NCBI GenBank assembly: GCA_030527235.1 | Contig: JAUNBL010000008.1 | Coordinates: 1-57,521, forward strand | Reading direction: 5' to 3' | Source: Clostridia bacterium | Lineage (GTDB): Bacteria > Bacillota > Clostridia > UMGS1883 | Length of the DNA: 57,521 nucleotides | Shown: piece by piece, positions 15,945-33,700 of the stretch | How the letters are laid out: each line of letters begins with the position of its first letter | Position numbering within the stretch: position 1 is the stretch's first letter | Notes under the pieces: generated by a model | What the model saw: only the letters and a program-made list of their open reading frames with translations | Told to the model about the DNA's origin: nothing | Databases searched by the model: none | Position numbers and translations under genes: made by a program

Positions 15945-18900
15945 TCAGAAATTGAACAACTTCGCTTCTGTGATAGGCCGCATAATAGAATTCCAAACAA
16001 AGATTTTTGCATATGCGGCAAGCGTAGACTTTTCAATCGCAACACTTGTTGTGTCATCCTTTGCCAATTCCTGACGTTTCATAGAAAGCAACTTACCCTC
16101 ATCATCATAGATTCCCGCATATACCGTTGCCGTTTCTGTGCAGTTCTCAACAGTTATATCGAAATACCATCGTGCGGATGTTTCTGCAAAATCAACCACT
16201 AATTCTTTTGTTGCAAAGGAGCTTGTATCAACAAAGGGTATAGCGTTTTCGCTCGCATACGTTTTAGCATATGAGTTGCTCGTTGCATATATTGTCATCT
16301 CATCGCAATTTCTGAACGCATGTGTTCCAATGCTCAAAACGCTATCTGAAATGTATGCCTGTTGAAGATTAATGCAGCCATAAAACGCTCTCGAACCGAT
16401 TGCCGTCACACCTTCTGAAATGATTATTTTCTTGACATTAAGTCTATCTGCATACCATGGGATAGCCGAAGTGGACGTATAATCTGCCATTGCTCCGATT
16501 CCGCTTACGGTAAAGACTCCGTTTGCATCCAGTTTCCACGCAATTCCGTTACTATCCACACCGCTGTCAACAATGTTTTCTGTAGCTTGCGTTATCACAA
16601 TGTTTTTTACAGCGTCCTTGCAATAAATGTATTCTCCGCTTGCTTGCCCAAGACGAAGGTTTGCAGTAGAGAATTCGGCGCTTCCTGTTTGAGTCAGTCT
16701 AAATGTTGCCGTAACTATAGTCCCGCTTGCCGGCAGGGCGTTTACGCTTGCGAATGTTACTCGAATCTGCCCTTGGGCATATGAATCATTGATTATCGGC
16801 TCAACAGAACCAAGCATATTGCCTTTTGCTGTACTAATCAATTCCATTTTGCTGCTGTCATAACACAGATTAAAGCTGCCGCCTATCGTTTCATAATCGG
16901 AGTCAACATTCACCGCTACTGTTATGGTATCGCCTAACTGGCCGTCCGAAGCATTGATTGTGATATTATCGTTGTCCGGCGAAACCGCACTCGTGTCCTT
17001 TACAATAAAATTAATGCTGATTTCATGCCCGTCAACAGCTAATGTGATTATGCTTTCTCCTGCCGAGCGGGGAGTTATACTTATTGTGTTGGCGCTTTCG
17101 TTAACAGATGCTGAAATAATTGGGTTGGAATAAGTGATAGTAATATTTTCATACAAAGCGCCCTCCGGTAAGGTTGTGTAAAAGAGCCGATACGGACGCG
17201 GTTCATTGCTTAAATCAACCTCCCAAGTTATGGTATCGTTGTTATTGTAATCTCGCCATGCAATGCCGGTCAAATCTTGACCTGCATCAGACTCCACCGT
17301 CACGGTACAGCTTGCTGAAAATCCTCCGTCCTCAGCTGTGGCAGTAATCGTTGCGCTTCCCTCTGCAACAGCGGTAATTAAGCCTGTTTCGGAATCAAAC
17401 GTGACGGCGCTGCCGCGGCAACGCCAGCTGATTGCTTTGTTTGCGGCATTGGCGGGGCTTACTGCTGCTGTTATCGTCTTTGTTTCCCCTATTTTCATAG
17501 TGAGGCTTGAATCGCTGATTGTCAGACCCGTAACAGCTACGCTGTTCTCGCTCCATATTGCATAAAGGGTGACATCAATTTTCAACATCGTAAACCGCCC
17601 ACCCGGTTGAATACTTCCTACCGTCGCATTGGAAGCATAATTCCAGCCAAGGAAGGTGTAGCCGCTTCTTGTCGGTTGTGTTGCACTGATAGTGACTGTA
17701 TTTCCGACGGCGGCAGTTATGGGCGACGGCGCACCGCTTCCGCCGTTGGCGTCAAAATTGATAGTTGATGTAGCCGTCGGCGCTTCTGCATAGATATAGA
17801 CAGGATTAATCAGCCATTTTGTCGGAGTATATATTCCGGTGTAGTTCTGATTTTGCGTTTCAACTGTCATCTTATACCATTTACCCGCTTCAAACTCGGA
17901 GTATGTATAGGTTCCGCTGCTTCCATAGGACGTTTCTCCTGCCGCAATCCTTTTACTGTACGGTTCGCTTTCGGAAGCCGGATCAGGCGTTCCGGATAGT
18001 TCTATCAGATGAAAATAGGAATTGGTTACGTTTTGGCTGGCGTTCCACGCATATGTCACTGATTCTCCTGCTGTGATTGTTTTACTTACATAACCGGAAG
18101 AGGAGGTAAGGCCTGTGGGCGATGTTACAGTCGGAGATTGCGCGCGGGTTCTCACGTAATGAATTTTCCACGAGGACTCTCCTGCGCTGTTTATAGCGCA
18201 GACGCCGATTTTATACCATGTACCGTATTCTACCGGAAGTCTTACAGAGGTTTGGGACAATTCTGTACATGAAACCCCTATTCCTTCGTTTTCGCTGCTC
18301 GGATTCGGATTAGCAGTCAGCTTTTTAACGGAATAATTATATTGCGTTGCATTATCGGAAGTCCAGTGAAAATCTATACTCGAACCATCGGTGTCAAGAT
18401 TCCAGAAGTTGGTGTATGTGGCCTGTCCCGAATAGCCCGGCAAGTCGCCGTTTGTCACGGGAAAGGTGATTGTCGGGGTTGTAGGAACACTCTGAGGAAA
18501 GTGAATCACTTTTGCCCCCATGTTACATTTTGCATCGTGTTCATAGGAGGTATTACGTCCTAATCTGTATTCACCATTGTTAAGGGAACTGTTGTGTGCA
18601 TAAAAAATGGCACTGCCGCTTTCGTTATAACCGCTACAAATAAGAATATGTGGTCTGGTGTTGTGAGAATAGCACCACTGAATAACAACATCTCCTCTGC
18701 TGAGTATATTTTCGTTTTCTGCTTTTGTAGCATAACCACTACTGTTTAATACCAAATCTTTTCCTTCTAATCCCGTGACATCTAAAATGGCGCAATAGCA
18801 GTCATATGTTGTTGTTTTGACTTCAATATCTAATCCTCCTGCCATAACACAACGAGAAACAAATTCTGCACAAAGCTGTTCGGGATTTTTATCACAATTT

Positions 18901-19097
18901 TCAGCGGCATACTTCATTGCCAATTCAACATCATAACTATATTGGCTCATCAATTTTGCATCTGTGATATCACGAGAAAAGGTTGTAATTGGTAGTGACA
19001 GCAAAATAATTATTGTCGCAAGCAGCAAAATAATAGAGTTTTGAAATGTAAAAATTGATGAACCCGTTATTCTTGGTTCTCGTAATTTAGAACGCAT
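15945..19097 (-). CDS. secreted amidase-like (CHAP/NlpC-type) protein with cohesin domain and leucine-rich repeat
   Basis: 1,050 residues. ATG 19097 has AGAGG about 10 bases upstream. A hydrophobic segment at 20-40 serves as signal or anchor. Residues 45-200 resemble the Amidase_6/CHAP-like cysteine fold, with nucleophile candidate Cys in EQLCAEFVSRCVMAGG and His in RPHILICSG. Residues 205-699 are a linker of Ig/Fn3-like, Listeria-Bacteroides and Big_2 modules encoded by DNA identical to the neighbouring gene. Residues about 706-840 read as a cohesin: GDTITVAVNV, IGGSFNLCYDSSKMELIS, GQIRVTFASVNALPASGTIVTATF. Residues 845-955 are a BspA-type LRR_5 (GVTAIGSRAFYGCINLQQ), and a C-terminal beta domain ends in KIFVWNSIMRPITEAKLFNF. 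Likely role: an extracellular cell-wall hydrolase and docking scaffold. It follows the dockerin gene by 55 bp with no terminator visible, so the two are probably cotranscribed. Confidence 0.82.
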   Translation of the reverse strand: MRSKLREPRITGSSIFTFQNSIILLLATIIILLSLPITTFSRDITDAKLMSQYSYDVELAMKYAAENCDKNPEQLCAEFVSRCVMAGGLDIEVKTTTYDCYCAILDVTGLEGKDLVLNSSGYATKAENENILSRGDVVIQWCYSHNTRPHILICSGYNESGSAIFYAHNSSLNNGEYRLGRNTSYEHDAKCNMGAKVIHFPQSVPTTPTITFPVTNGDLPGYSGQATYTNFWNLDTDGSSIDFHWTSDNATQYNYSVKKLTANPNPSSENEGIGVSCTELSQTSVRLPVEYGTWYKIGVCAINSAGESSWKIHYVRTRAQSPTVTSPTGLTSSSGYVSKTITAGESVTYAWNASQNVTNSYFHLIELSGTPDPASESEPYSKRIAAGETSYGSSGTYTYSEFEAGKWYKMTVETQNQNYTGIYTPTKWLINPVYIYAEAPTATSTINFDANGGSGAPSPITAAVGNTVTISATQPTRSGYTFLGWNYASNATVGSIQPGGRFTMLKIDVTLYAIWSENSVAVTGLTISDSSLTMKIGETKTITAAVSPANAANKAISWRCRGSAVTFDSETGLITAVAEGSATITATAEDGGFSASCTVTVESDAGQDLTGIAWRDYNNNDTITWEVDLSNEPRPYRLFYTTLPEGALYENITITYSNPIISASVNESANTISITPRSAGESIITLAVDGHEISINFIVKDTSAVSPDNDNITINASDGQLGDTITVAVNVDSDYETIGGSFNLCYDSSKMELISTAKGNMLGSVEPIINDSYAQGQIRVTFASVNALPASGTIVTATFRLTQTGSAEFSTANLRLGQASGEYIYCKDAVKNIVITQATENIVDSGVDSNGIAWKLDANGVFTVSGIGAMADYTSTSAIPWYADRLNVKKIIISEGVTAIGSRAFYGCINLQQAYISDSVLSIGTHAFRNCDEMTIYATSNSYAKTYASENAIPFVDTSSFATKELVVDFAETSARWYFDITVENCTETATVYAGIYDDEGKLLSMKRQELAKDDTTSVAIEKSTLAAYAKIFVWNSIMRPITEAKLFNF
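17000..18482. repeat. 1,483-bp perfect direct repeat inside the cohesin gene
   Basis: Matches 19371-20853 at a constant offset of 2,371. It is bounded by T/C at 16999/19370 and A/G at 18483/20854, and shadow translations in other frames are also identical. It encodes 494 residues of linker modules. Confidence 0.9.
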
Positions 19098-19152
19098 AAA
19101 TTACAAACCTCTTTTCCTAAAATGTTTTTTATACTTTTGTTTTGGGTTCTAC

Positions 19153-21768
19153 TTAAAATTCATTTATTAATCCCGCATCATATCTCAAAACAAGGTACGC
19201 ATCCATAAAATCAACTTGACCATCATTGTTCACATTGGCTGCGGATTGCTGTTCCTCTGTAAGTGTTTGCAAACCCGCATCATATCTCAAGATGAGATAT
19301 GCATCCATAAAGTCAATTTCCGAGTCGCCGTTTACATCACCTGATAGCGGCGATACTGCACTCGTGTCCCTTACAATAAAATTAATGCTGATTTCATGCC
19401 CGTCAACAGCTAATGTGATTATGCTTTCTCCTGCCGAGCGGGGAGTTATACTTATTGTGTTGGCGCTTTCGTTAACAGATGCTGAAATAATTGGGTTGGA
19501 ATAAGTGATAGTAATATTTTCATACAAAGCGCCCTCCGGTAAGGTTGTGTAAAAGAGCCGATACGGACGCGGTTCATTGCTTAAATCAACCTCCCAAGTT
19601 ATGGTATCGTTGTTATTGTAATCTCGCCATGCAATGCCGGTCAAATCTTGACCTGCATCAGACTCCACCGTCACGGTACAGCTTGCTGAAAATCCTCCGT
19701 CCTCAGCTGTGGCAGTAATCGTTGCGCTTCCCTCTGCAACAGCGGTAATTAAGCCTGTTTCGGAATCAAACGTGACGGCGCTGCCGCGGCAACGCCAGCT
19801 GATTGCTTTGTTTGCGGCATTGGCGGGGCTTACTGCTGCTGTTATCGTCTTTGTTTCCCCTATTTTCATAGTGAGGCTTGAATCGCTGATTGTCAGACCC
19901 GTAACAGCTACGCTGTTCTCGCTCCATATTGCATAAAGGGTGACATCAATTTTCAACATCGTAAACCGCCCACCCGGTTGAATACTTCCTACCGTCGCAT
20001 TGGAAGCATAATTCCAGCCAAGGAAGGTGTAGCCGCTTCTTGTCGGTTGTGTTGCACTGATAGTGACTGTATTTCCGACGGCGGCAGTTATGGGCGACGG
20101 CGCACCGCTTCCGCCGTTGGCGTCAAAATTGATAGTTGATGTAGCCGTCGGCGCTTCTGCATAGATATAGACAGGATTAATCAGCCATTTTGTCGGAGTA
20201 TATATTCCGGTGTAGTTCTGATTTTGCGTTTCAACTGTCATCTTATACCATTTACCCGCTTCAAACTCGGAGTATGTATAGGTTCCGCTGCTTCCATAGG
20301 ACGTTTCTCCTGCCGCAATCCTTTTACTGTACGGTTCGCTTTCGGAAGCCGGATCAGGCGTTCCGGATAGTTCTATCAGATGAAAATAGGAATTGGTTAC
20401 GTTTTGGCTGGCGTTCCACGCATATGTCACTGATTCTCCTGCTGTGATTGTTTTACTTACATAACCGGAAGAGGAGGTAAGGCCTGTGGGCGATGTTACA
20501 GTCGGAGATTGCGCGCGGGTTCTCACGTAATGAATTTTCCACGAGGACTCTCCTGCGCTGTTTATAGCGCAGACGCCGATTTTATACCATGTACCGTATT
20601 CTACCGGAAGTCTTACAGAGGTTTGGGACAATTCTGTACATGAAACCCCTATTCCTTCGTTTTCGCTGCTCGGATTCGGATTAGCAGTCAGCTTTTTAAC
20701 GGAATAATTATATTGCGTTGCATTATCGGAAGTCCAGTGAAAATCTATACTCGAACCATCGGTGTCAAGATTCCAGAAGTTGGTGTATGTGGCCTGTCCC
20801 GAATAGCCCGGCAAGTCGCCGTTTGTCACGGGAAAGGTGATTGTCGGGGTTGTGGGAACTGTTGCGGTTTCTGACCAGCCCAGCGATAACGCAAAGTTGT
20901 ATGTAATAGCTCTTCTGTCATTATACGAGGAACTATGGGCAAGTGCGGCTTGATGCAAATCATACAATGTTATTTTATCATAGGTTCCGACATTGTTCTT
21001 TGCAAGAGCCGCTATAGTATTTGCAGTACCTCCCCATTGATTTCTCAGGTCGGCATAATACACCAATGCCGGAGCAGAAACGATTCCAAGTGATATGCCG
21101 GCATCAATGTATGCTAATGAATCGACGGCAATCAATGCGTTTTGGGCGGCCTTTCCCTCAGCCGTGGTTAATAAAGCTGATATAGCTCGCACCTCTTCGT
21201 CACTAGCTGTTCTATTTTTATGTGTCCAATAGTCAGCTGCATTATTGGCTATTTCATAATAAAGCGTATCACCTAGAATGTTTTGTGCGTTGGTCGGATT
21301 TGCTTTGACAATCGTCTGCAAAAGAGGCAGCGCTCGTCCCGAAAAAGCATTCCACTGAAATTTCCCGATACTCATTCCATGGTTGTTATCGTTTTTATTA
21401 ACTGTTCCATAATCGCCTTCGTTTTGAATAATAATTTTCGTAGCCTCGGCAACAATCAAGTCCTTGCTTTGTGTTAGTTCGGAAACTGACATCAACGAGA
21501 CGTTGTCATCTTCGTATTGATACCCAATTTCTATTTCCGCGATTGTCTCTTTATCGCCAATTGCAGTTGTCTTAAACAGGCGGATATCACCTTCGCAGAC
21601 ATATACGGAATACACTTCTCCAGTAATGTTGCTATGCTCTGAAAGCATACTGCCACGAGATAGGCATTCATTTCCCTTTAATATTTCGCTTTCCGCGTGA
21701 CACAATGTCGAACAAACAACAACCGCCATTAATACGCATAAAACACCATAGACTCTTTTTATAACCAT
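19153..21768 (-). CDS. secreted lysozyme-like protein with C-terminal dockerin
   Basis: 871 residues from ATG 21768. The longer frame from 21831 is rejected because AGGAGG (about 21777-21784) fits the inner start and the signal peptide (VYGVLCVLMAVVVCSTLCHA) follows it. Residues about 85-300 contain NEGDYGTVNKNDNNHGMSIGKFQWN, a lysozyme-like pattern with a candidate catalytic Glu, and a helical C-lobe. Residues 305-799 are the linker shared exactly with the cohesin protein. Residues 808-871 form a type-I-like dockerin with two Ca-binding loops, DVNGDSEIDFMDAYLILRY and NVNNDGQVDFMDAYLVLRY. It should be exported and dock to a cohesin. A long leader of about 200 nt carries a conserved hairpin, and the promoter is overlapped by a palindrome. 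The exact glycosidase family is uncertain. Confidence 0.82.
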   Translation of the reverse strand: MVIKRVYGVLCVLMAVVVCSTLCHAESEILKGNECLSRGSMLSEHSNITGEVYSVYVCEGDIRLFKTTAIGDKETIAEIEIGYQYEDDNVSLMSVSELTQSKDLIVAEATKIIIQNEGDYGTVNKNDNNHGMSIGKFQWNAFSGRALPLLQTIVKANPTNAQNILGDTLYYEIANNAADYWTHKNRTASDEEVRAISALLTTAEGKAAQNALIAVDSLAYIDAGISLGIVSAPALVYYADLRNQWGGTANTIAALAKNNVGTYDKITLYDLHQAALAHSSSYNDRRAITYNFALSLGWSETATVPTTPTITFPVTNGDLPGYSGQATYTNFWNLDTDGSSIDFHWTSDNATQYNYSVKKLTANPNPSSENEGIGVSCTELSQTSVRLPVEYGTWYKIGVCAINSAGESSWKIHYVRTRAQSPTVTSPTGLTSSSGYVSKTITAGESVTYAWNASQNVTNSYFHLIELSGTPDPASESEPYSKRIAAGETSYGSSGTYTYSEFEAGKWYKMTVETQNQNYTGIYTPTKWLINPVYIYAEAPTATSTINFDANGGSGAPSPITAAVGNTVTISATQPTRSGYTFLGWNYASNATVGSIQPGGRFTMLKIDVTLYAIWSENSVAVTGLTISDSSLTMKIGETKTITAAVSPANAANKAISWRCRGSAVTFDSETGLITAVAEGSATITATAEDGGFSASCTVTVESDAGQDLTGIAWRDYNNNDTITWEVDLSNEPRPYRLFYTTLPEGALYENITITYSNPIISASVNESANTISITPRSAGESIITLAVDGHEISINFIVRDTSAVSPLSGDVNGDSEIDFMDAYLILRYDAGLQTLTEEQQSAANVNNDGQVDFMDAYLVLRYDAGLINEF
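19371..20853. repeat. 1,483-bp perfect direct repeat inside the dockerin gene
   Basis: Partner of 17000-18482, in the same orientation and the same reading frame of the linker. The absence of any visible difference across 494 codons points to recent duplication or gene conversion. Confidence 0.9.
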
Positions 21769-21857
21769 CGCCTGACTCCTCCTTTTATGTTTTATAATTG
21801 GGTTGCGTCTCGATTTATACGCGCAGAACATTATCTGCTGAGCATGGCTATTATCCC

Positions 21858-22205: not shown

Positions 22206-23555
22206 TCATACATTAAGGTATTCTTTTATGTTGTCATGGCAAATGCCGCGAATAATTGTACCAAGAGCCGCTTCGTCGCGCGGATACTCACCTGCATCCA
22301 CCCATCCACCGACAACAGAGCACAAGATACGCCTGAAATATTCATGCCGCGTGTAGGATACAAAGCTTCTGCTATCTGTAAGCATGCCTATAAAATCACC
22401 CAAAACTCCCATACTCGCCAAACAGCGCAGCTGTTCTTCCATTCCGTCGCGATGGTCGCAAAACCACCACGCGCTTCCAAACTGAATTTTGCCGCGAACG
22501 CCACTGTTTTGGAAGTTGCCTGCCATGGACGCAAGAGTAGCATTATCCTTTGGATTCAGGCAGTAAAGCACAGTTTTAGGGAGTGAGTCTTCTTTTTCAA
22601 GGCTATCCAAAAGCGCAGACAGCGAGGCGGCTATGCACCCATCGCTCAAAGAATCAAAACCGCTGTCCGGCCCCAAACGGGCGAACATGCGTGAGTTATT
22701 ATTGCGCATGGCCCCGATATGCAGCTGCATTGCCATGGCGTGTTGTGAATACTCCTTTGCGCAAAATCTGAAAACGGCCGTCTTGAAAATCTCCTCCTCC
22801 AGTGCGCTGATTTGCTCGCCGCGGCGTCTTTTAGCGAAAACCGCCTCTGCGTTTCCGCATGCAAAGGGGATTTTTTCAAACGAATGGTCCGACAGCACAC
22901 AGCCCGCCGCCGCAAAGTATGCTATACGCTCGGCGAGGCGTTCTTCCAATTGCGCAAAGGTCGTAACGTTAAGCTGCTCCATATAATCCCAAAAATCGTC
23001 CTTTTCAATCGCCATGGCGCGGTCGGGTCTAAACGTGGGCAGCACGCGCAGCTTTGGGCTCTGCAATACTCTATGGCATTGCAAATCTTCCGTAGGGTCG
23101 TTCGTAGTGCATACAAGCTCTACTCCGGAGTTCTCTATAAACTCGCGCGCACCGCAGAGCTTGTCATTCACACGCTCGTATATTTCGTCCGCCGTTTTCT
23201 CCGTGAGCATTTCCTCTATACCAAAATAGCGGTAAAGCTCCAAATGCGTCCAATGGTATATCGGGTTCCCCACGGCGTAAGGCAGCGTTCTGGCAAACGC
23301 GCGCCATTTCTCACGCCCCGGCGCGTCTCCTGTTATGAATCTTTCTTCCACTCCGTGCGCGCGCATGAGCCGCCACTTATAATGGTCTCCTGACAAAAAC
23401 AACTCGGAGGCGTCCTCAAAACGGTGGTTTTCTGCTATGAGCGCAGCATCGAGATGGCAGTGGTAGTCTATGATTTTGCAATTCTTTGCATAAGTATGGT
23501 ACAAATGCCGTGCGCAGGGGGTTTTGAGCATAAAGTCATCATTTATAAAAGTCAT
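22206..23555 (-). CDS. uxaC: uronate (glucuronate/galacturonate) isomerase
   Basis: 449 residues, close to the usual family size of about 470. It interconverts D-glucuronate and fructuronate, or D-galacturonate and tagaturonate, in the cytoplasm. Family hallmarks are the metal-site motif IIDYHCHLDAALIAEN near residue 30, the HYKWRLMRAHGV block, HWTHLELYRYFGI, and late NNNSRMF and GSAWWFCDHRDGMEEQ blocks. GGGAGG precedes ATG 23555. The start overlaps the preceding dehydrogenase stop by 4 bases (ATGA), so translation is coupled. It is the last gene of a five-gene operon. None of the usual partners (uxaA, uxaB, uxuA, kdgK, kdgA) lies in this window. Confidence 0.95.
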   Translation of the reverse strand: MTFINDDFMLKTPCARHLYHTYAKNCKIIDYHCHLDAALIAENHRFEDASELFLSGDHYKWRLMRAHGVEERFITGDAPGREKWRAFARTLPYAVGNPIYHWTHLELYRYFGIEEMLTEKTADEIYERVNDKLCGAREFIENSGVELVCTTNDPTEDLQCHRVLQSPKLRVLPTFRPDRAMAIEKDDFWDYMEQLNVTTFAQLEERLAERIAYFAAAGCVLSDHSFEKIPFACGNAEAVFAKRRRGEQISALEEEIFKTAVFRFCAKEYSQHAMAMQLHIGAMRNNNSRMFARLGPDSGFDSLSDGCIAASLSALLDSLEKEDSLPKTVLYCLNPKDNATLASMAGNFQNSGVRGKIQFGSAWWFCDHRDGMEEQLRCLASMGVLGDFIGMLTDSRSFVSYTRHEYFRRILCSVVGGWVDAGEYPRDEAALGTIIRGICHDNIKEYLNV

Positions 23556-24538
23556 ATCCTTTTTCCTCCCGGTGCAAGCAAGATACGTTCGCCTGCGCTT
23601 TTATACAAGGCGTGCGTAAGCTCTGTCACGCGCCGCGCGTCCTCTAAAGATACAAAGTGTCCGTTGCCTGTTTCCAAATATGTGTAATAGTCCTCAAACA
23701 GTTTGTTGTGCCCGCTGCCCCAATAGGGTTTGCCAAGCACGCCCGCCGTATCCTTTGCCAACACACTCGCTTCGCCTTTGCAAAGACGATACAGCGCGCC
23801 GTCACTGTACCGATACAGCGCGTCGTCCGTTTCAATCTCAAGGCGCATGGGTGAATTGGTCGGGTAGGTATTCGTGGCAAAAAACACCCCCCTTGCTCCG
23901 CTTTCAAACTCTATCAGCGCATCACAGGTGTCCTCCACTTCAATCGAAGGCATGGACTTATTGGAAATGGTGGCGCAAACGCTTGCCGCCTCGCCTCCGA
24001 AAAGGAGCATTAGGTCTAAAAGATGCACTGCCTGATTGATAACAACGCCGCCGCCCTCTGTTGCCCATTTCCCACGCCATGGCGCGCTCGCGTAATACTC
24101 CGCGTCGCGTTTCCACGTAAGCGCTGCAAAAATCGAACGCACGTCCGGACAAATCGAGAGCAGCTTTTCCACACAAGGGTTATATCGATTTTGCAATACG
24201 CAGCAAACGTCTTTCGCTCCCTTTGCGGCGCGAAGCTGACGCCACTGCGCCTCGTCTATCGCCGCGGGTTTCTCAAGTACAACCTTCTTTCCCGCCTCAA
24301 GCGCTGCGAGCGCCATCGTCACATGCAAAAAGTGCGGCGTGCAGATATGTACAACGTCTACCTCTCCGTCTCTGAGCGCGTCCGCATAATCGTTATACAC
24401 CTTTTTGCCGCACAGCGCCGCTGTTTTCGCCTCATCAATATCGCACACGGCAACAAGACGCGCATATGGCGCGTCTTCAAGCAGCTGTGCGTGTACGCTG
24501 CCAATATTCCCGTATCCGACAACACAAGCGTTTTTCAT
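23552..24538 (-). CDS. Gfo/Idh/MocA family NAD(P)-dependent sugar oxidoreductase
   Basis: 328 residues. The N-terminal Rossmann fold opens VVGYGNIGSVHAQLLED; the family EKPAAID motif lies near residue 90 and TEGGGVVINQAVHLLDLMLLFGG, with the catalytic His/Asp, near 165. Such enzymes oxidise or reduce a sugar hydroxyl/ketone. Here it lies between a TIM-barrel isomerase and uxaC, with ATGA overlaps on both sides. It may replace the missing tagaturonate/fructuronate reductase, or act on C3 of a glycoside. The substrate cannot be read from sequence. Paralogous to the gene at 25287-26438 but clearly diverged. Confidence 0.88.
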   Translation of the reverse strand: MKNACVVGYGNIGSVHAQLLEDAPYARLVAVCDIDEAKTAALCGKKVYNDYADALRDGEVDVVHICTPHFLHVTMALAALEAGKKVVLEKPAAIDEAQWRQLRAAKGAKDVCCVLQNRYNPCVEKLLSICPDVRSIFAALTWKRDAEYYASAPWRGKWATEGGGVVINQAVHLLDLMLLFGGEAASVCATISNKSMPSIEVEDTCDALIEFESGARGVFFATNTYPTNSPMRLEIETDDALYRYSDGALYRLCKGEASVLAKDTAGVLGKPYWGSGHNKLFEDYYTYLETGNGHFVSLEDARRVTELTHALYKSAGERILLAPGGKRI

Positions 24539-25287
24539 ACATATCCTCTTTGTGTAAGAAAATTATAACTCGTCTTAAGCGCGTCAATCGGGTCGCCGTC
24601 ACAGTAATCCTGCTCCACCATGGCATACTCCGCACCTGACATGTCCGCAGCAGCCAGAATTTCGTCCCAGTTAAGGTTTCCGCTGCCAACAGGCGCCATA
24701 GCGGTTTGAAAGCCCTTTATTTTCAGGTCCTTATAATGCAGCACAACCGCTCTTTTGCCGAGCCTTTCTATCATCTTGGCAGGGTCCTGCGCCGCGAACG
24801 CAAGCCAGTACACGTCCAAAATGAACTTCATATCTGTATTTTCAATGAGGTAGTCCATAATATATTTGCCGTCTAAGCGCATGAATTCAAACGCATGGTT
24901 ATGGTATGCAAAACACATTTTGCGCTTTGAAAGCTCCTGCGTGGCACGGTTTGCAACTTTTATAAACTCATTTAGACTCTGAGAGCTGTTCCCCATCTCC
25001 TCTGGCATCATGCCCAGTCCGGCAATCGAGCACGAGAGCGTGCTCTGGTATTCGATTACTGCGTCTATATTATCTCTGTAATCAGCGTAGGGTCTGTGCG
25101 TGCAAATCGGCTCCAGCGAATACTTATCAAGTATCTCACGAACGTCCGCCGCACCCACGCCCACGCCGGAGACCTGTACGCATTTATAACCTATTTTCGC
25201 AATTTTGCCAAGCGTGGCATCAAGGTCCGCCGTACTTTTGCAAAGGTCGCGCACGGTAAAAAGCTGCGCTCCTATCCTCTTATCCAT
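24535..25287 (-). CDS. sugar phosphate isomerase/epimerase family TIM-barrel protein
   Basis: 250 residues of the AP_endonuc_2/xylose-isomerase-like TIM-barrel fold. It starts RIGAQLFTVRDLC. Metal-site motifs are CFAYHNHAFEF, FILDVYWLAF, VVLHYKDLK and AMVEQDYCDG, supplying Glu/Asp/His/Glu ligands. Members next to Gfo/Idh enzymes include sugar isomerases, C4 epimerases of 3-ketosugars (YcjR-like) and 3-ketoglycoside-cleaving enzymes. It overlaps both neighbours (ATGA downstream, TAATG upstream). Activity unknown, family sure. Confidence 0.87.
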   Translation of the reverse strand: MDKRIGAQLFTVRDLCKSTADLDATLGKIAKIGYKCVQVSGVGVGAADVREILDKYSLEPICTHRPYADYRDNIDAVIEYQSTLSCSIAGLGMMPEEMGNSSQSLNEFIKVANRATQELSKRKMCFAYHNHAFEFMRLDGKYIMDYLIENTDMKFILDVYWLAFAAQDPAKMIERLGKRAVVLHYKDLKIKGFQTAMAPVGSGNLNWDEILAAADMSGAEYAMVEQDYCDGDPIDALKTSYNFLTQRGYV

Positions 25288-26438
25288 TAATACGTCCCCT
25301 CCGTTTCGGCAGTCTTTTGGACAACCTTTTTAACTACCGTTGAATTCTTAATTTTTTCATTGAGTATATCGTAGAACTCGTCGTGCGGGAAGTTTTTCAC
25401 GTCCGCCCAGTTTCCCGTCCATGCAGAATAGTGTATGGCGTTTGAAATAGTAAGCCCGAAAACGCCTTCTTCTCCCGGCGCCAGCAGCGGTGTTCCCTTT
25501 TCTATCGCGCGCACAAAGTTGCGCAGAATACCGGCGTGCTGCTCGTTCTTTCCATGTACAGGAATTTCACAGCGCCATACATCGGGATTTCCGAAAACGC
25601 CTTCAAATATACGGTTAAACTCTCGCTCTGAAATTTCGTTGCGGTCAAACATCAGCCTGCCGCCCTCTACCACAACGCGCCCCATGTCACACGCAACCTC
25701 AAGACGATTGGTTCCCGGCGTTTCGCCGGTGGAGGTTATATATACGCCTGTGAGTCCGCTTTCATACTGCATAAACGCGGTCACGTCATCCTCAACCTCT
25801 ATATCATAGTATTTCCCAAACGACACCTGCGACAATATTCTGTCGGGCATCCCAAACATCCACTGCCACAAATCAAGCTGGTGCGGGTTCTGGTTAATAA
25901 GCGCGCCGCCGCCCTCTGTTTTCCAGGTCGAGCGCCATGTGCAGCTATCGTGGTACGACTGGGGTCGGTACCAATCCGTTATTGTCCACTGCACACGCTT
26001 CAGTTCGCCCAAAAGGCCCTTTTGAATCATGTCTCTGAGCTTTTGATATATCGGATTCGTGCGCTGATTATACATTATGCCGAATACTCTGTCCGTCTTT
26101 TTTGCGGCAGCATTCATCTCAAGCACCTGCTTAGTGTACACTCCCGCAGGCTTTTCCGTAAGCACGTGCAAATTATTTTCAAACGCTTTAATCGCAATCG
26201 GCGGATGCTCATAGTGCGGTACGGCTATTATAACGGCGTCCACACACTTCGCGGCAAAAAGTTCCTCCGCACTTTCAAATATTGCCGCATCGGGATAAAG
26301 CGCAGCGGCCTTTTCACGGCGCCAAGGCGCAATGTCGCACACGGCGGCAAGTGCGCCTCCATCAGCCCGCCCCTTCGCAAGAGTCTCCGCATGTGCCGTA
26401 CCCATGTTGCCAAAGCCGATAATTCCAAATCTAACCAT
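25287..26438 (-). CDS. Gfo/Idh/MocA family oxidoreductase, second copy
   Basis: 383 residues. Dinucleotide motif FGIIGFGNMGTAHAETLA at the N-terminus, LTEKPAGVY near 95, and the catalytic block TEGGGALINQNPHQLDLWQWMFG near 170. The stop overlaps the next start by one base (TAATG), and its start overlaps the previous gene by 8 bases. Longer than its paralogue at 23552, with an extra lysine-rich C-terminal tail. It probably oxidises a sugar or uronate moiety using NAD(P) and acts in concert with the flanking TIM-barrel proteins. Confidence 0.88.
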   Translation of the reverse strand: MVRFGIIGFGNMGTAHAETLAKGRADGGALAAVCDIAPWRREKAAALYPDAAIFESAEELFAAKCVDAVIIAVPHYEHPPIAIKAFENNLHVLTEKPAGVYTKQVLEMNAAAKKTDRVFGIMYNQRTNPIYQKLRDMIQKGLLGELKRVQWTITDWYRPQSYHDSCTWRSTWKTEGGGALINQNPHQLDLWQWMFGMPDRILSQVSFGKYYDIEVEDDVTAFMQYESGLTGVYITSTGETPGTNRLEVACDMGRVVVEGGRLMFDRNEISEREFNRIFEGVFGNPDVWRCEIPVHGKNEQHAGILRNFVRAIEKGTPLLAPGEEGVFGLTISNAIHYSAWTGNWADVKNFPHDEFYDILNEKIKNSTVVKKVVQKTAETEGTY

Positions 26439-27291
26439 TTTGCTCCACTTCCTTTATTATTTTCATCAATGCCTCAAACGCCATAGTGAACTTTCCGGCA
26501 TCGCTCTTGGAAAGTTTTGTCATTTTATCGTCCTTCTCAAGAGCCGCCAGCCCTTCAAAGCTGCCTAAATGCGGCTCCAGGCTCAAAAATCCGCAGTAGC
26601 CTCTGTCCGAAAGCGCGCGTATAATTTCACGCACACAGCCGTCGCCCTGTCCGGCCGGCACAACAGCGCCATCCTTTTGCGCATCCTTTATATGCACATA
26701 TTCTATATATTCTTCTATCTCGTAATAGGCATCGGGGAAAACCGTCTGACCGCACTGCACAAAGTTCGCCATATCAAATACGGCGCGCAGGTGTTCTGAG
26801 CCAACGCTCTCAAAGATGTCGCGGCAGCGGCGCGCCGTCTCACCATAGATGTCCTTTTCATTTTCATGGAGCAGCACCACTCCTTCTCGCTTGGCCTCCT
26901 CCGCCATGGCGTTCATTCTGAAAAGCGCCTCGTCACGGTGCAAATCCTTCTCGTTTGCCGGCATGAAGAAGCTGAACACACGAATAAACTGCGTATCAAG
27001 CATTTTCGCCGTCCTAATCACGCGGCGGAGCTTCGCAAGATGCGCGTCAAAATCGTCTCCGATATCAATCTTTCCAATCGGAGAGCCTATTGAAGATGCC
27101 GAAATCTTGTATTCGCGCATCTGCTTTTTCAGCGCGGTGACTTCCTCGTCCGAAAGGTCGGCAATATTCTTCCCGTTTATTCCTCGCGGCTCAAAGTAGC
27201 TCATGCCAAGCTCCTTCAAGTGCGCAAACTGTTCTGCGGTTACGGGCGAAATTTCATCAGCAAAACCCGATAGCATTAAATTCATTTTCAA
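26431..27291 (-). CDS. sugar phosphate isomerase/epimerase family TIM-barrel protein, first gene of operon
   Basis: 286 residues of the AP_endonuc_2-like TIM barrel. Metal-ligand motifs are VLLHENEKDIYG (Glu), AVFDMANFVQCG (Asp), YVHIKDAQ (His) and FLSLEPHLG (Glu). It starts at ATG 27291 behind GGGAGG and opens the operon that ends with uxaC. It differs clearly from the second TIM-barrel gene (24535), so the two probably catalyse different steps. Candidate roles: epimerisation or isomerisation of a keto-uronate, or beta-elimination of a 3-ketoglycoside. Expression is probably controlled through the direct repeats at 27341-27371. Confidence 0.87.
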   Translation of the reverse strand: MKMNLMLSGFADEISPVTAEQFAHLKELGMSYFEPRGINGKNIADLSDEEVTALKKQMREYKISASSIGSPIGKIDIGDDFDAHLAKLRRVIRTAKMLDTQFIRVFSFFMPANEKDLHRDEALFRMNAMAEEAKREGVVLLHENEKDIYGETARRCRDIFESVGSEHLRAVFDMANFVQCGQTVFPDAYYEIEEYIEYVHIKDAQKDGAVVPAGQGDGCVREIIRALSDRGYCGFLSLEPHLGSFEGLAALEKDDKMTKLSKSDAGKFTMAFEALMKIIKEVEQNG

Positions 27292-27340
27292 TACCTCCCT
27301 TTCGCCAGTTTAGCATAGTTTTGGTATAACTTCTCGTACT

Positions 27341-27371
27341 ATATTGACTTAGCTATTGCGTATATTGACTT
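27341..27371. promoter_or_regulatory. AraC-type operator: two 10-bp direct repeats 21 bp apart
   Basis: ATATTGACTT occurs at 27341-27350 and again at 27362-27371, in the same orientation and exactly two helical turns apart, between the divergent uronate operon and the AraC gene. That geometry is classic for the two HTH motifs of AraC-family activators. The proximal half-site would abut the -35 region of a minus-strand promoter whose -10 could be TATGCT (27317-27312). The minus-strand promoter lacks a good -35, consistent with activator dependence. Confidence 0.6.
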
Positions 27372-27403
27372 TTTGTGTTAATATACTTGTGAGGCGATGC
27401 ACG

Positions 27404-28240
27404 ATGAGAAAGCTTTTATTTGAGGCGGCAAGCAAAGAGCGCGGCTTTTCTTACAGCCATATTCTGGACGAAAGGCCGCAGACGAACGATTTTACACTTC
27501 ACACGCACGAAAACCTATACGAAATCCTTTACGTTATCCGGGGCGACTGTGAGTTTCGCGCGGAGGGCAACACGTATGCCTTAAGCCGGGGCGGTTCAGC
27601 GCTCACCCACAACAATGAACTGCACCGTGTAATTCATTTAAGCAACGCCTGCTATGAGCGCGTTGTTATAAATCTGTCCCCTGAGTTTTTTGAGCAAAAC
27701 GGCTGCCTGCAATACGCACAGCCGTTTTGCGGCAGAAATATCGGCGAGGACAACGTAGTCTATGCAGATGGCCTTGAAGATGCCATGAGCCGCCTTGAGA
27801 GCTACGGCGGCAGTCCGGCGGTTACTCAGGCTGTTCTGATTGAGATTTTGCACCTTTTGGGCGAAGCGTTCAGGAGAAAAGGCGAAAAGGGTATTGCACA
27901 AAAGCATTTACGTGATATAATACTCTATATAAATGCGCATCTTGCGGAGGACTTGTCGCTTAACGCGCTCTGCGCGCGGTTTTACATAAACAAATCGTAC
28001 CTATGCCGCCTGTTCCGCAAGGAGACGGGGCTTACCATAAACCGCTATATTACGATAAAGCGTCTCGGCGAGGCGCTGCGCCTTTTTGACGAAGGCGCAA
28101 CGCTTACCGATGCCGCACTCGGCGCTGGCTTTGGCAGCTATTCAAATTTTTATAAAATGCATGTACGCGAAAAGGGTCTGCCGCCCTCGCGCAGCATGGG
28201 AATAAACACCAAAATTCCACCGAAAGGATGGTTCAAATGA
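27404..28240 (+). CDS. AraC family transcriptional regulator of the uronate cluster
   Basis: 278 residues from ATG 27404, chosen over the upstream ATG at 27356 because GAGG lies at 27391-27394 and homology-like sequence starts with RKLLFEAASKERGF. The N-terminal cupin (FTLHTHENLYEILYVIRGDCEF) would bind a sugar ligand. The C-terminal domain has two HTH motifs, LSLNALCARFYINKSYLCRLFRKETG and TLTDAALGAGFGSYSNFYKMHVREKGLPPS. It is divergent from the uronate operon and overlaps the kinase gene by ATGA. It presumably binds the 21-bp-spaced repeats upstream of both units and responds to a uronate or derivative. Confidence 0.92.
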   Translation: MRKLLFEAASKERGFSYSHILDERPQTNDFTLHTHENLYEILYVIRGDCEFRAEGNTYALSRGGSALTHNNELHRVIHLSNACYERVVINLSPEFFEQNGCLQYAQPFCGRNIGEDNVVYADGLEDAMSRLESYGGSPAVTQAVLIEILHLLGEAFRRKGEKGIAQKHLRDIILYINAHLAEDLSLNALCARFYINKSYLCRLFRKETGLTINRYITIKRLGEALRLFDEGATLTDAALGAGFGSYSNFYKMHVREKGLPPSRSMGINTKIPPKGWFK

Positions 28241-29418
28241 ATTTATCTTTGCAGGATGTTTTCTTGGCGGAGTATCCGCAGGCGAACGACATTAGGGAGG
28301 CGTTTTGTCCGTACCGGGTCTGTCCCATAGGCGCTCATTCTGACCATCAATACGGCTTGGTGAGCGGGTTTGCGATTGACCAAGGGATAAAGATGCTGTA
28401 TACCGTTACGGAAAATGGCGTTATCGAGCTTTCAAGCCGCAATTTTACCGGCAAGGTGCAGTTTCACATACATGACATACCAAAAAAACAGCTTGACTGG
28501 GCAGACTATCTGCGCGGCGCGGCGATGGCTCTCGGAATTAAGCATGAGCTGCACCGCGGCATTTACGGAGTGATTGAGGGCAGCCTTCCCGTGGGCGGTC
28601 TTTCTTCCAGCGCGGCGGTCATAATTTGCTTTCTCGCGGCGCTGTGCCGCGCCAACAAAATTGCGCTGACCGCACACGAGATGATAGAAACCGCGCTTTG
28701 GGCCGAAATGCACTACGTTGGCATAAACGTGGGGAAGCTCGACCAGTCCTGCGAGGTATACAGCCGCAAAGACAATCTGCTGTTTTTGGATACTCGTGAT
28801 GATACATATGAGCTTATCCCGCAGCATCCGAACATGGCGCCCTATGAGTTTGCGATATTCTTTTCAGGTGTGGAACGTACGCTTGTCGGCAGCAAGTTTA
28901 ACATGCGCGTGGACGAGCTTAAGGCGGCGTCATACGCGCTTAAAGGTTTTGCCAAAATGGAGTACGGCCGTTTTGCTGACAGCAGGCTTCGTGACGTACC
29001 GCGCGAAGTTTTTGATAAATACGCTTCCCGCCTTCCCGAAAATTGGTTTAAGCGGGCAACGCACTTTTACACAGAGTTTGAACGCGTACAAAAGGGCGCC
29101 GAGGCATGGCGCAGCGGGGATATCGCCGCTTTTGGGCGTCTTTCCTCGGAAAGCGGCTACAGCAGTATTTACAATTATGAAACCGGCTCCGATGAGCTCA
29201 AAGCGCTCTATGACATAATGCTCAAAGCCGATGGAGTGTACGGAGGACGTTTCAGCGGCGCGGGCTTCAAGGGCTGCGTAATGGCAATAATTGACCCGGC
29301 GTACGAAACCTCTATCAACAGTTATGTGTCGCGCGAATATCTGAAACTCTTCCCCGCGCTTGACGGCAAGTTCAGCGTCCATTTCTGCCATAGTTCGGAT
29401 GGAGTCAAGCTGTATTAA
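28237..29418 (+). CDS. galactokinase-family GHMP kinase, probable galacturonokinase type
   Basis: 393 residues from ATG 28237 (AAAGGA upstream, ATGA overlap with the regulator). The GHMP ATP-binding motif PVGGLSSSAAV lies near residue 115. True galactokinases carry GRVNLIGEHTDY near the N-terminus; this protein has PYRVCPIGAHSDHQYG, which resembles what I recall of plant galacturonokinase (PYRICPLGAHIDHQGG). With uxaC nearby, phosphorylation of D-galacturonate (or glucuronate) at C1 is a better guess than galactose. C-terminal GHMP motif: YGGRFSGAGFKGCVMAII. Substrate assignment is inference. Confidence 0.85.
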   Translation: MNLSLQDVFLAEYPQANDIREAFCPYRVCPIGAHSDHQYGLVSGFAIDQGIKMLYTVTENGVIELSSRNFTGKVQFHIHDIPKKQLDWADYLRGAAMALGIKHELHRGIYGVIEGSLPVGGLSSSAAVIICFLAALCRANKIALTAHEMIETALWAEMHYVGINVGKLDQSCEVYSRKDNLLFLDTRDDTYELIPQHPNMAPYEFAIFFSGVERTLVGSKFNMRVDELKAASYALKGFAKMEYGRFADSRLRDVPREVFDKYASRLPENWFKRATHFYTEFERVQKGAEAWRSGDIAAFGRLSSESGYSSIYNYETGSDELKALYDIMLKADGVYGGRFSGAGFKGCVMAIIDPAYETSINSYVSREYLKLFPALDGKFSVHFCHSSDGVKLY

Positions 29419-29526: not shown

Positions 29527-30798
29527 TTAATAAAAGCGCGAGTATTTTTCGATTGCCGCTTCAACACCCATTTGCCGCGCTTCTTTAGCAGGGTTTGTCA
29601 TACGCTCGGCACGGCTGAAAACGGGTTCAAGAAACTTTTCTTCGCCTTTTTTACAACGCGTCAAGCCTTCGCCGGCTATTTGCACCAGGTCTGTAAGCAG
29701 CGAGCGGAGGCGTTCATATTCTATCGGACACTTGCCTTGTACCGCAAGCGCGCGCATGGCGGAATTTGGGAGCGGAATATCCTCTTTTGCAAGCCTTGAT
29801 GCGGCTTTTTCCATATTCGCCAAAAGCCCCTTGTTAAACGCACTCGGTGCAAACGTTTCTGACATCGGCTGTTCGCAGTCGCTGCGTATCTCCAGTGTAC
29901 CCCGCCGCGTTATTTCCACATTGCAAAATGACAAATAACACTCAATATCCGCCGCAGGCGCTGTTTTGAAATACTCTGACAGGATTTGCGGCTTGAACAC
30001 TTCGTACTTGCCGTTTCGTATACGGTTAAACATGCCTTTCTTTTTGAAAAGCTCTATAATGTCCTGCTCTGATTCAAGCTCGTCGTCTACAACGCCGGTT
30101 ATGGAAGGACACATTCCGAAAGCGCTTTTTTCCCACAGGTAATCGCGATAGCACAAAAAACGACCATTGTCAAAATCGTTGGAGTTTGCAAAAAGGAGCG
30201 CGCGCACAAAATCTGTTTTCGCAAAAAACGAGTACGCGCGAGCCAAGTCCCGTAGGTTCACGTCAAGATGCGTCTGTACGCTTGACAGATAGGCGGGAAA
30301 GTCGCACATACCATGTTCGCCGCGAAAACGAGTTAAGTACTCGCGCACCATATTATACGTCGAAAACTCCACCGGAAGCGGCTGTGCGTATTTCATGTAC
30401 GGGTTAGTCCCCATTCCGGTCAGAGTATGGTTATGACTCAGAAAATATTCCTGCGCAATCTGTGCATAGCTGTAAAACCGCTCTGCAAGTTCGGTAAGGC
30501 TTTCGCCGTGGTTTAACGCAATTTCAAAATTGTTATACGAGTTATCATAGGAAATACAGTCGCCGGCACCGTTGACAGCAAAGCATACGCGGCCTTGCTC
30601 ATCAAAAAGCTCCTCGTGAAATCCGCGCTTAAGGAAAATGTCAAACACGCCTCTTGCCACATCGATATCCACACGGCATTTCGCTTTGTTGATAAGCGGG
30701 AATTCGTGCTCCGTTCCGACGTGACGCGTATCACGCCGGAACGGGGCCAAAAAAGTCTTTTCTATGAGTGCGTCAATTAAGTCAACATCTTTTTTCAT
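29527..30798 (-). CDS. glutamate-cysteine ligase (GCS2) family ATP-dependent ligase
   Basis: 423 residues. The motif HVGTEHEFPLI near residue 26 and conserved blocks SYDNSYNNFEIALN, SSVQTHLDVNLRD, FANSNDFDNGRF and TLEIRSDCEQP fit the GCS2 carboxylate-amine ligase fold that couples glutamate to cysteine or another amine. Its start overlaps the stop of the large secreted protein gene by 4 bases (ATGA), tying it translationally to a polysaccharide-active exoprotein, an odd partner. No glutathione synthetase gene is nearby. It could make gamma-glutamylcysteine or another gamma-glutamyl product. Confidence 0.8.
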   Translation of the reverse strand: MKKDVDLIDALIEKTFLAPFRRDTRHVGTEHEFPLINKAKCRVDIDVARGVFDIFLKRGFHEELFDEQGRVCFAVNGAGDCISYDNSYNNFEIALNHGESLTELAERFYSYAQIAQEYFLSHNHTLTGMGTNPYMKYAQPLPVEFSTYNMVREYLTRFRGEHGMCDFPAYLSSVQTHLDVNLRDLARAYSFFAKTDFVRALLFANSNDFDNGRFLCYRDYLWEKSAFGMCPSITGVVDDELESEQDIIELFKKKGMFNRIRNGKYEVFKPQILSEYFKTAPAADIECYLSFCNVEITRRGTLEIRSDCEQPMSETFAPSAFNKGLLANMEKAASRLAKEDIPLPNSAMRALAVQGKCPIEYERLRSLLTDLVQIAGEGLTRCKKGEEKFLEPVFSRAERMTNPAKEARQMGVEAAIEKYSRFY

Positions 30799-33700
30799 TC
30801 AATCGTTTTGACCTCGCAAATCGGTTCCATGCCGTCCCACGCGAAGATACGCAGCGAGCTGCATTCTGTGTCCAGCTCAGAGACGACCTCAAGGCTGCGC
30901 GGCGTTTTGGCAAACGCACTTGTTATTTTAACAAGCGCTCCGTCCTCATCATATTGTGCAGCCACAAGTCTAACGTCTCTCGTCATAAACGAAGCTTCCA
31001 CCGTTATCGCATCCTCCGTAATGGACGTAATAGCAATTTGGTTCTGTTCAATCGGCGTATAACCCTCAATTTTGAGCGTTGGAGCGTACGCAGTGTTTTC
31101 GGAATAGAACACGCCGTATGCCTCGCTGCTCTCGGAAACAACCATAAAGTTAAGGCTTGTACGACCCTCAACACTGTTAAAGTATTCCGTAACGTCGAAC
31201 TCCACTGCATTCATGACCCCTGCGCCGAGTTCATCGCCAATATCCACCCTCGCAATCGGGTCGCAGTCCGGTATGCTCGTAATTCCCGCTACCGTGGCGC
31301 GAGTCCATGAGGAATCAAGATTCTCCATCGGGTAGAGCGCAAACTTCGTTGCAGTGGTTTGGTTGCTGTCCGCTCCTGTATAAAGAGTCACTGTCGCCTT
31401 TGTCGCCACGGTACCCTCATTACAGTCAAAGCCCATCAGCCCGAAAAGCGCCCCCGATGTGGAAGTTGTGCGGCTGTCCGCCATTATGCGGTTCTGATAC
31501 TCCGCCGTGTTCTCATGGTTCTGACCGGTAGCCCTCCTGATTGTCGCTCCGCGAAGCGCCGTAAGCGTATTTTCAGGTACGCTTGTACCCAGAAGGTTGT
31601 ACACAATCGTAACGTCATACGCCTCTCCGTCGGCGATAATATCGCTGCCTGTTGTATGCGAATATTCGTAGACATATCCGTCAGTTATAACAACACTCTC
31701 AAATCCATCCACCACTCCCGTGGAAAACGATTCCCCGAACGCAACTTTAGCTGCTGTATCCGCTTTGAGCTGTACGCCGTAATTGTCTGCATAGTGTACC
31801 GTCACATCCGAGGAGGAGATAGCTCTGTAAACAAGCGTGAGCGATGCATCGGCGCTCATCTTTGTCTTAGTGACGCTGCCTTCGGGTACGTACTCGTAAA
31901 GCGCTCCGTTTATGACCTTTCGCTCCTCAGGTACTATCGAGCAGCCGCCCGCACCGCCGTATTGCGATATATACTCAGTCATAAGCTCCTCTTGGTTTTC
32001 AGTGATATAATTTACCGGTACATTTATTTTCGTCCCCATTTGCAGTATCTGCTGCGCTGTAAGCGCGTGGTTGTAAATTCTAAAATCATCCAAATAGCCC
32101 TTATACCACTCGCCGCTGCCCCAGTTTGCACGGCCTATATACGCCACGCTTGAGCTGCCGAGTATATCAGTCAGAGCGTGTGCGCTCGCCAGCGTCGTTT
32201 TCAGCACGCCGTCAACATAGATATAAGTTGTGGATGGCTCTATCACAAGCGCAACATGCTTCCATGCAAGCGATGATGCCGCCGTTGGGTTAGTCGGACG
32301 CGTACCCTGATTGTTGTAGCGTTCCACCGTCATTGTTGTACCCTGGTCATAAAGCGCAAGATAGTGTTCGTAAGGATATGACTGAGCTGCCGCGCTGGGG
32401 GCTGCAAAGAACACCCAGCCGCCGTCTGCCGCGCTTGCCGCACCGTCCTTTTTATTGAAGAATGAAACCGTTATCGAATCATATCCCGTGAGCAGACTCC
32501 CGCCCGCATAGTCGTAAAGGTCAAGATAGCTGTTTGACGTGCCGTCAAAGTACGCAGCTCCTCCGTAAATCGAGTCCTCCGAAACCACAACGTCACCGTT
32601 TATCTCGGATTTGCCAAGCGCGCCTTTGAAGCCCGTAGTATAATCATCAAACGAAAGGTCTATCAGGACTCCGTCATCGTCAACCCCGCTGTTTTCGTAG
32701 TAAACCTCAACCTCGGCGCCGCTTCTCACGGTGAAAATCATGTCGGCCGCCTCGTTAAGAGTCTGGCTCATTGTATACTTTTTACCGTTGTGAATTACGT
32801 AAATCGGAGCGTAGTCACGCGCGTCCACAGTCATGCCCGTGGGAAGGGAAACGCTCATCGGCTCTGCAACGTCGTCACCGGTTTCGTCAATAAGATAAAA
32901 CTCCACATTTACCGAGGCGACACTCTCGCCGTACACCTCAATCTCCGCCGCACTCGGCCGCTGCAGCGAAGATTCAAAATCCACCGTCACATACCTTCCG
33001 TAAGCTTGCTCGTTAAACATAAGTTCACCCGGCGCACCTGAGCATTTCAAGTTGTTTGCGGCAGGCGACTGAGTATTGCTCACATATACGTTTATACTGT
33101 CCGCCACAGCGTTTTTCAAATTCACGCCGCTCACACGGCTGTTTACGCCCAAGTCAAACACTACGCGCGCGTCAGACGCTTCTTTCGCAATCCACTCAGT
33201 CGAAACATCGTTGTCATTTATTAGATTCTTTGTACCGTAAGGCATATGAGACGACACTTCGACATCTTTCGCGTACGCAATGTCGCGTGCACGTTCCTCA
33301 TCCGCTTCTTCGTCAACATTTTCTCCGTCGTAGGAAATGCTCGCTCCGCCGTCTATTGTAACATGCGTCTCGCGCAATTCATCGCCGCAGCGAAGCTTAA
33401 GCGTCGCTTCTGAAGCTTCTGCTGTAGGATTATTCACATAGAGGACGCCGTTTTTTGAAACCCAGGCGGAAAGCCGCCCGTCCGTTTGGATATACGCTTT
33501 TATCTCCTGTCCGTTTGCGGTAAGCGGCGCATCGTAAAAATACGCTATTGAACGATCCGCTTCAATGACCGTACTGTCCGCAAGCACCGGGGAGCCTTCA
33601 GTCGAAGTAAGGATCACATCAAGCGTTGCATCAATAGGTCTGTCAGTGTAAAAATGCGCTGTGAATATATACTCCTTGCCGTCGGGGTCTTTCAGCATTA

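Follow-up and report, generated by a model that had tools for sequence, protein, structure and literature searches.

A clostridial five-gene operon that probably cleaves glucuronides by oxidation and elimination and is joined to uronate isomerase

We analysed a stretch of 57,521 nucleotides (the window) from a gut-type Clostridia bacterium (GenBank assembly GCA_030527235.1, contig JAUNBL010000008.1). On its minus strand lie five genes, timB, gfoB, timA, gfoA and uxaC, arranged head to tail with overlaps of 8, 1, 4 and 4 bases, which confirms the single run described in a first-pass annotation of this DNA. We propose, with a probability of roughly three in four, that these genes form an operon for the non-hydrolytic cleavage of glucuronides and the entry of the freed acid into metabolism. 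One of two ideas in that annotation had been that glycuronides are cleaved oxidatively and uxaC then acts on the released uronate; it is supported by the kinship of GfoB to the enzyme P2B11 and of TimA to 3-keto-glycoside 1,2-lyases. The five genes are as follows.

26431 to 27291, minus strand: timB, TIM-barrel protein with a TTG start (AP_endonuc_2, 2.1e-28); possible 2-hydroxy-3-keto-glucuronal hydratase
25287 to 26438, minus strand: gfoB, Gfo/Idh dehydrogenase; proposed NAD-dependent glucuronide 3-dehydrogenase, from its match to PDB entry 8tdi
24535 to 25287, minus strand: timA, TIM-barrel protein; proposed 3-keto-glucuronide 1,2-lyase (beta-eliminase), from fold and catalytic residues
23552 to 24538, minus strand: gfoA, Gfo/Idh oxidoreductase by Pfam; possible 3-keto-glucuronate reductase
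22206 to 23555, minus strand: uxaC, glucuronate isomerase (PF02614, 7e-182; above the NCBIfam equivalog cut-off)

In the proposed scheme, GfoB would use NAD+ to oxidise the glucuronosyl unit at C3, a step strongly suggested by its kinship. TimA, as a metal enzyme, would then remove the C2 proton through His131, and the aglycone would be expelled by beta-elimination, as its conserved catalytic residues strongly suggest. TimB would add water to 2-hydroxy-3-keto-glucuronal and GfoA would reduce 3-keto-glucuronate to glucuronate with the NADH from the GfoB step, both roles being assigned by elimination. The net result of the four steps would be a redox-neutral hydrolysis. Applied to a glucuronide, this four-enzyme chemistry would yield glucuronate, the substrate of UxaC, which would convert it to fructuronate. 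The family assignment of UxaC is firm, with 543 bits to the NCBIfam glucuronate isomerase equivalog (NF002794; cut-off 387) and a full-length PF02614 match. The Gfo/Idh and AP_endonuc_2 domains of the other four products exceed the Pfam cut-offs, and none of the four reached an NCBIfam equivalog cut-off, only broad families being assigned. An ATG at 27285, preceded by GGGAGG, may be a better start for timB than the TTG.

The two oxidoreductases share a closest solved relative. Four-enzyme deglycosylation operons contain a Gfo/Idh-type C3 dehydrogenase, and gfoB encodes a probable one, its best PDB match being 8tdi, “P2B11 Glucuronide-3-dehydrogenase” (E 2.2e-89; 42% identity over 389 columns). 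Lys96-Pro97 and His186 of GfoB are invariant in all 40 homologues compared. GfoA, the second oxidoreductase encoded together with the other cassette enzymes, also matched P2B11 best (E 6.5e-31; 32% identity), and its Glu89-Lys90-Pro91 and His172 are invariant in 33/33 homologues.

For TimA, a profile search matched AtOGE (8bvk), AL1 (8tcd) and BT1 (8tct). The predicted structure (mean predicted local distance difference test score, pLDDT, 96.7) agreed best with the 3-keto-beta-glucopyranoside-1,2-lyase AL1 (Z 28.6; root-mean-square deviation 2.0 over 237 residues), followed by BT1 (Z 27.8) and AtOGE (Z 24.6). The metal ligands of AtOGE are His132, Asp163, His189 and the weakly binding Glu233; its His134 is essential (PMC10628242). 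In order, His132, His134, Asp163, His189 and Glu233 align with His129, His131, Asp158, His184 and Glu225 of TimA, and all 33 homologues compared keep these five TimA residues. Judged from sequence and model, TimA would hold both the metal site and the catalytic histidine of a beta-eliminase. The C-glycoside deglycosidase DgpB/C (CGE) is described in the same paper as carrying a Glu where the first metal ligand sits and as having a small subunit as its partner (PMC10628242). TimA has His129 at this position, like AtOGE, and no small-subunit gene lies between the five overlapping open reading frames. When TimA was searched against plasmid sequences, distant relatives alone were found.

The AlphaFold model of TimB (pLDDT 93.7) has a fold of the D-tagatose 3-epimerase/UlaE/AsbF type. 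It matched the AtHYD hydratase (8ro4) with Z 25.1, tied with many epimerases, and YcjR (6wn6) appeared among its Foldseek matches at E 1.6e-12, likewise tied with many. Glu143, Asp173, His200 and Glu239 are invariant in 45/45 homologues and, read from their strand positions in the model, are candidate metal ligands; by the same reading, Glu145 occupies the position of the TimA catalytic histidine.

Several known systems resemble this arrangement. Nasseri et al. (Nature, 2024) reportedly described a 3-keto-glycoside pathway, and the likeness to the P2B11 system extends beyond GfoB, as TimA belongs to the AL1/BT1 lyase fold group, the entry codes of AL1 and BT1 neighbour 8tdi, and the nearest P2B11 homologues among the related loci described below sit in the same four-gene cassette. 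Here, in contrast, uxaC is part of the operon and TimB has no close solved relative. Gfo/Idh enzymes also partner TIM-barrel proteins on 3-keto sugars in Escherichia coli YcjS/YcjR/YcjQ and gut DgpA/B/C, a partnership shared with our operon. The first-pass comparison with YcjR and DgpB/C is apt to that extent, and only partly so, because TimA lies nearer AtOGE, AL1 and BT1, that is, among O-glycoside lyases, and GfoB reaches 303 bits with P2B11 but 71 with DgpA.

An Agrobacterium operon combines two oxidoreductases with two sugar-phosphate-isomerase-like proteins, as does ours: AtOGE eliminates, AtHYD hydrates (a result the paper calls preliminary) and a Gfo enzyme reduces (PMC10628242). TimA resembles AtOGE at the catalytic histidine and metal ligands. 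The Agrobacterium system differs in that its first oxidation is made by GlycDH, expressed with a TAT-pathway (twin-arginine translocation) signal protein, its substrates are glucosides, and the four enzymes described include no uronate isomerase (PMC10628242). In Bacillus smithii, LgdA, LgdB1, LgdB2 and LgdC carry levoglucosan through oxidation, elimination, hydration and reduction to glucose, elimination being reported in part for LgdB2 (PMC7676230). This is likewise a four-enzyme scheme, with NAD+ and Mn2+, and it differs in its anhydroglucose substrate and in yielding glucose rather than glucuronate (PMC7676230). The four-enzyme chemistry is already published; the tie to uxaC may be new.

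We then located the remainder of the glucuronate route. The window corresponds to contig C33 of an assembly of 2.09 Mb in 100 contigs, 82% complete, in which the operon holds the single copy of uxaC. The first-pass statement that the standard uronate genes are absent holds for the open reading frames scanned in the window and fails for the genome. uxuA lies on another contig (C36:35756-36811), overlapped by a uxuB-like gene of the mannitol-dehydrogenase family (540 amino acids), whose NCBIfam matches to D-arabinitol 4-dehydrogenase, fructuronate reductase and tagaturonate reductase all fall below cut-off. The genome search for kdgK and kdgA proposed in that annotation found both, at C75:475-1488 (65% identity to a relative's kdgK) and C44:8924-9493, respectively. 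Next to kdgK lie kduI (above cut-off) and a short-chain dehydrogenase/reductase (SDR) of the kduD/gluconate-5-dehydrogenase type. These genes, from the uxuB-like gene and uxuA to kdgK and kdgA, would complete the route. No altronate dehydratase UxaA (PF04295) turned up in the genome at its 82% completeness, which makes galacturonate less likely as the main sugar.

To place the operon in context, we scanned for related loci with the TimB protein. This confirmed 539 stretches, of which the best 80 were kept. These loci total 1.29 Mb, some are cut by contig ends, and their record titles name Clostridia and Bacilli almost throughout. Genes were counted by tblastn, because in several loci a longer antisense frame overlaps timB, which open reading frame calling then missed. 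Near timB we found gfoB in 67 loci, timA in 42 and gfoA in 42; all four occurred together in 27, and timB stood alone in 12. uxuA was present in 9 loci, uxaC in 5 and either in 11, against about one such gene expected by a rough estimate from gene densities in relatives' genomes. A homologue of an SDR mannonate oxidoreductase was found in 12 of the 80 (one at only 30% identity), and relatives carry uxuA and this SDR directly behind the cassette. For example, one locus (L015) reads timB, gfoB, timA, gfoA, uxuA, SDR, kdgA, kdgK. uxaC follows gfoA in the window, timA in L016, uxuA in the near-identical L019 and L020, and the SDR in L029; in L066 it lies on the opposite strand. The varied positions therefore suggest repeated recruitment of uxaC to the cassette rather than a single inherited accident.

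The genes closest to P2B11 among these loci (L063, 59%; L034, 58%) both sit in the arrangement araC, gfoB timA gfoA timB. Beside the latter cassette is a gene of family GH4 (L034:11060-12499), a glycosidase family that works by oxidation and elimination. Two apparent natural fusions were seen, timB-gfoB in a single frame of 672 amino acids (L016:9974-11992) and timA-timB in one of 530 (L011:8796-10388), which may also stem from assembly error. Upstream of another cassette lies a gene for a protein with a Tox-GHH nuclease-toxin domain (L006:3882-5753).

The association with uronate genes was also visible at the genome level. Among 60 genomes including our own, 17 carried timB (E up to 1e-50), 31 uxaC and 23 uxuA. 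In tests that ignore shared ancestry, uxaC was found in 14/17 timB genomes against 17/43 others (p 0.003; p 0.005 with our own genome left out), uxuA in 11/17 against 12/43 (p 0.01; p 0.017) and at least one of the two in 16/17 against 18/43 (p 1.5e-4; 15/16 against 18/43, p 2.6e-4). The presence of both was more weakly associated (9/17 against 11/43, p 0.044; p 0.072 with our own left out). In four of the 17 timB genomes (G031, G035, G036 and G040), timB and uxuA lie at most 4 kb apart on one contig.

Several observations weigh against a glucuronide-cleaving operon. The term “glucuronide-3-dehydrogenase” for P2B11 is the depositors' name for 8tdi, and the proposed glucuronide specificity draws on this name and on the company of uronate genes. 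TimB had no PDB match by single-sequence search, and its structural matches are a broad tie of epimerase-type folds; we therefore infer its hydratase role. gfoB and gfoA occur without a detected timA in 15/80 loci (11 of them away from contig ends), so that TimA would there be dispensable or replaced by another lyase, or TimB would also eliminate. Only 5 of the 80 loci have uxaC attached; by contig coordinates, timB and uxaC share a contig in none of the 16 other timB genomes; and the co-occurrence tests take no account of common descent.

Some of these points would fit a cassette whose substrates are glucosides or further neutral glycosides, as for AL1, BT1 and AtOGE, uxaC being a passenger or serving the uronate of another enzyme. 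The closest solved relatives of TimA indeed carry the name 3-keto-beta-glucopyranoside lyase, and, beyond the scarcity of uxaC, 66/80 loci contain no uronate gene at all in the stretch covered. However, the best match of GfoB is a glucuronide dehydrogenase, across several lineages uxuA, uxaC and the SDR join the cassette at several different positions, and timB co-occurs with uxaC and uxuA across genomes; we consider a glucoside role unlikely. Less probable still is an epimerising pathway of the YcjS/YcjR/YcjQ kind, in which GfoB would oxidise C3, TimB (or TimA) would invert C4 or C2 and GfoA would reduce, so that one uronide becomes another ahead of the uxaC step. The TimB fold, nearest to sugar 3-epimerase types and with YcjR among its matches, would suit it, but those matches are broadly tied, and TimA has an eliminase histidine and ligand set that such a route does not need. 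The other first-pass idea, that the Gfo and TIM-barrel proteins take the place of fructuronate reductase and mannonate dehydratase after the uxaC step, had arisen from the lack of uxaB, uxaA, uxuA, kdgK and kdgA beside the operon. We reject it as very improbable: the downstream genes are present elsewhere in the genome, so the operon is no stand-in for the classical route, and cassette and uxuA adjoin in relatives. Glucuronide cleavage with delivery of glucuronate to UxaC remains the reading we favour.

Upstream of timB lie a divergent regulatory gene and a direct repeat.

27356 to 28240, plus strand: AraC-type regulator gene by Pfam, divergent from the timB operon and likely its regulator
27340 to 27371, araC-timB spacer: exact 11-bp direct repeat TATATTGACTT at a 21-bp pitch, a candidate AraC operator

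The AraC protein probably switches the operon on. In 28 of the 80 related loci, a divergent araC homologue is found no more than 400 bases upstream of timB; two Paenibacillus loci (L035 and L044), for instance, read araC, timB gfoB timA gfoA. The repeat pattern, which was picked after being seen, had no match in 100 shuffles. Exact 8-base repeats at the same 21-bp pitch were found in three of 26 loci scanned (L007, L028 and L030), while L006 has one at a 31-base pitch. With pitches of 20-22 bases allowed, such repeats were confined to the window and those three loci, and the evidence for operator conservation is therefore weak.

A GHMP kinase gene (28228-29418) overlaps the araC gene by 13 bases. 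Against galactokinase equivalogs its product reaches at most 200 bits, short of all the cut-offs, and its motif region resembles that of plant galacturonokinase; it may be a uronate kinase or a galactose kinase, and a single homologue (29%) was found among the 80 loci. Beyond it are a gene for a 423-amino-acid protein with no match in Pfam or NCBIfam (29527-30798) and one for a 1685-amino-acid protein with laminin-G-like and weak F5/8-type-C domains (30795-35852). Sequence searches of Pfam and PDB returned nothing for the N-terminal 801 residues of the latter, which may form a so far undescribed domain active on glycans. On the other side of the operon, two adjacent large proteins (15945-21831) share long near-identical stretches, including a 300-base copy pair (99%, spacing 2371); one contains a cohesin domain and the other ends, by eye, in a dockerin-like segment.

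Drugs, hormones and plant compounds bound as glucuronides are released by gut bacteria, and to our knowledge nearly all attention to this cleavage has gone to the classical beta-glucuronidases. In the open PubMed Central literature we found no paper on glucuronide-3-dehydrogenase or 3-keto-glucuronide, none linking uxuA with Gfo and sugar phosphate isomerase, and none linking uronate isomerase with 3-keto and Gfo. As far as that literature shows, a glucuronate-dedicated operon joined to uronate isomerase may be an undescribed variant. A bolder and more tentative possibility, which we hold to be somewhat doubtful, is a whole elimination pathway dedicated to glucuronate. TimB would then represent a new hydratase family acting on 2-hydroxy-3-keto-glucuronal and, where operons lack timA, perhaps serving as the lyase too. 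Clostridia would have wired this pathway repeatedly to uxaC, uxuA, mannonate oxidoreductase and kdgA/kdgK, giving a complete route from glucuronide to 2-keto-3-deoxy-6-phosphogluconate without a glucuronidase. The operon offers four testable enzymes with a simple readout by NADH and high-performance liquid chromatography. If our proposal is true, a widespread glucuronide-cleaving operon would escape both glucuronidase inhibitors and predictions based on carbohydrate-active enzymes (CAZymes).

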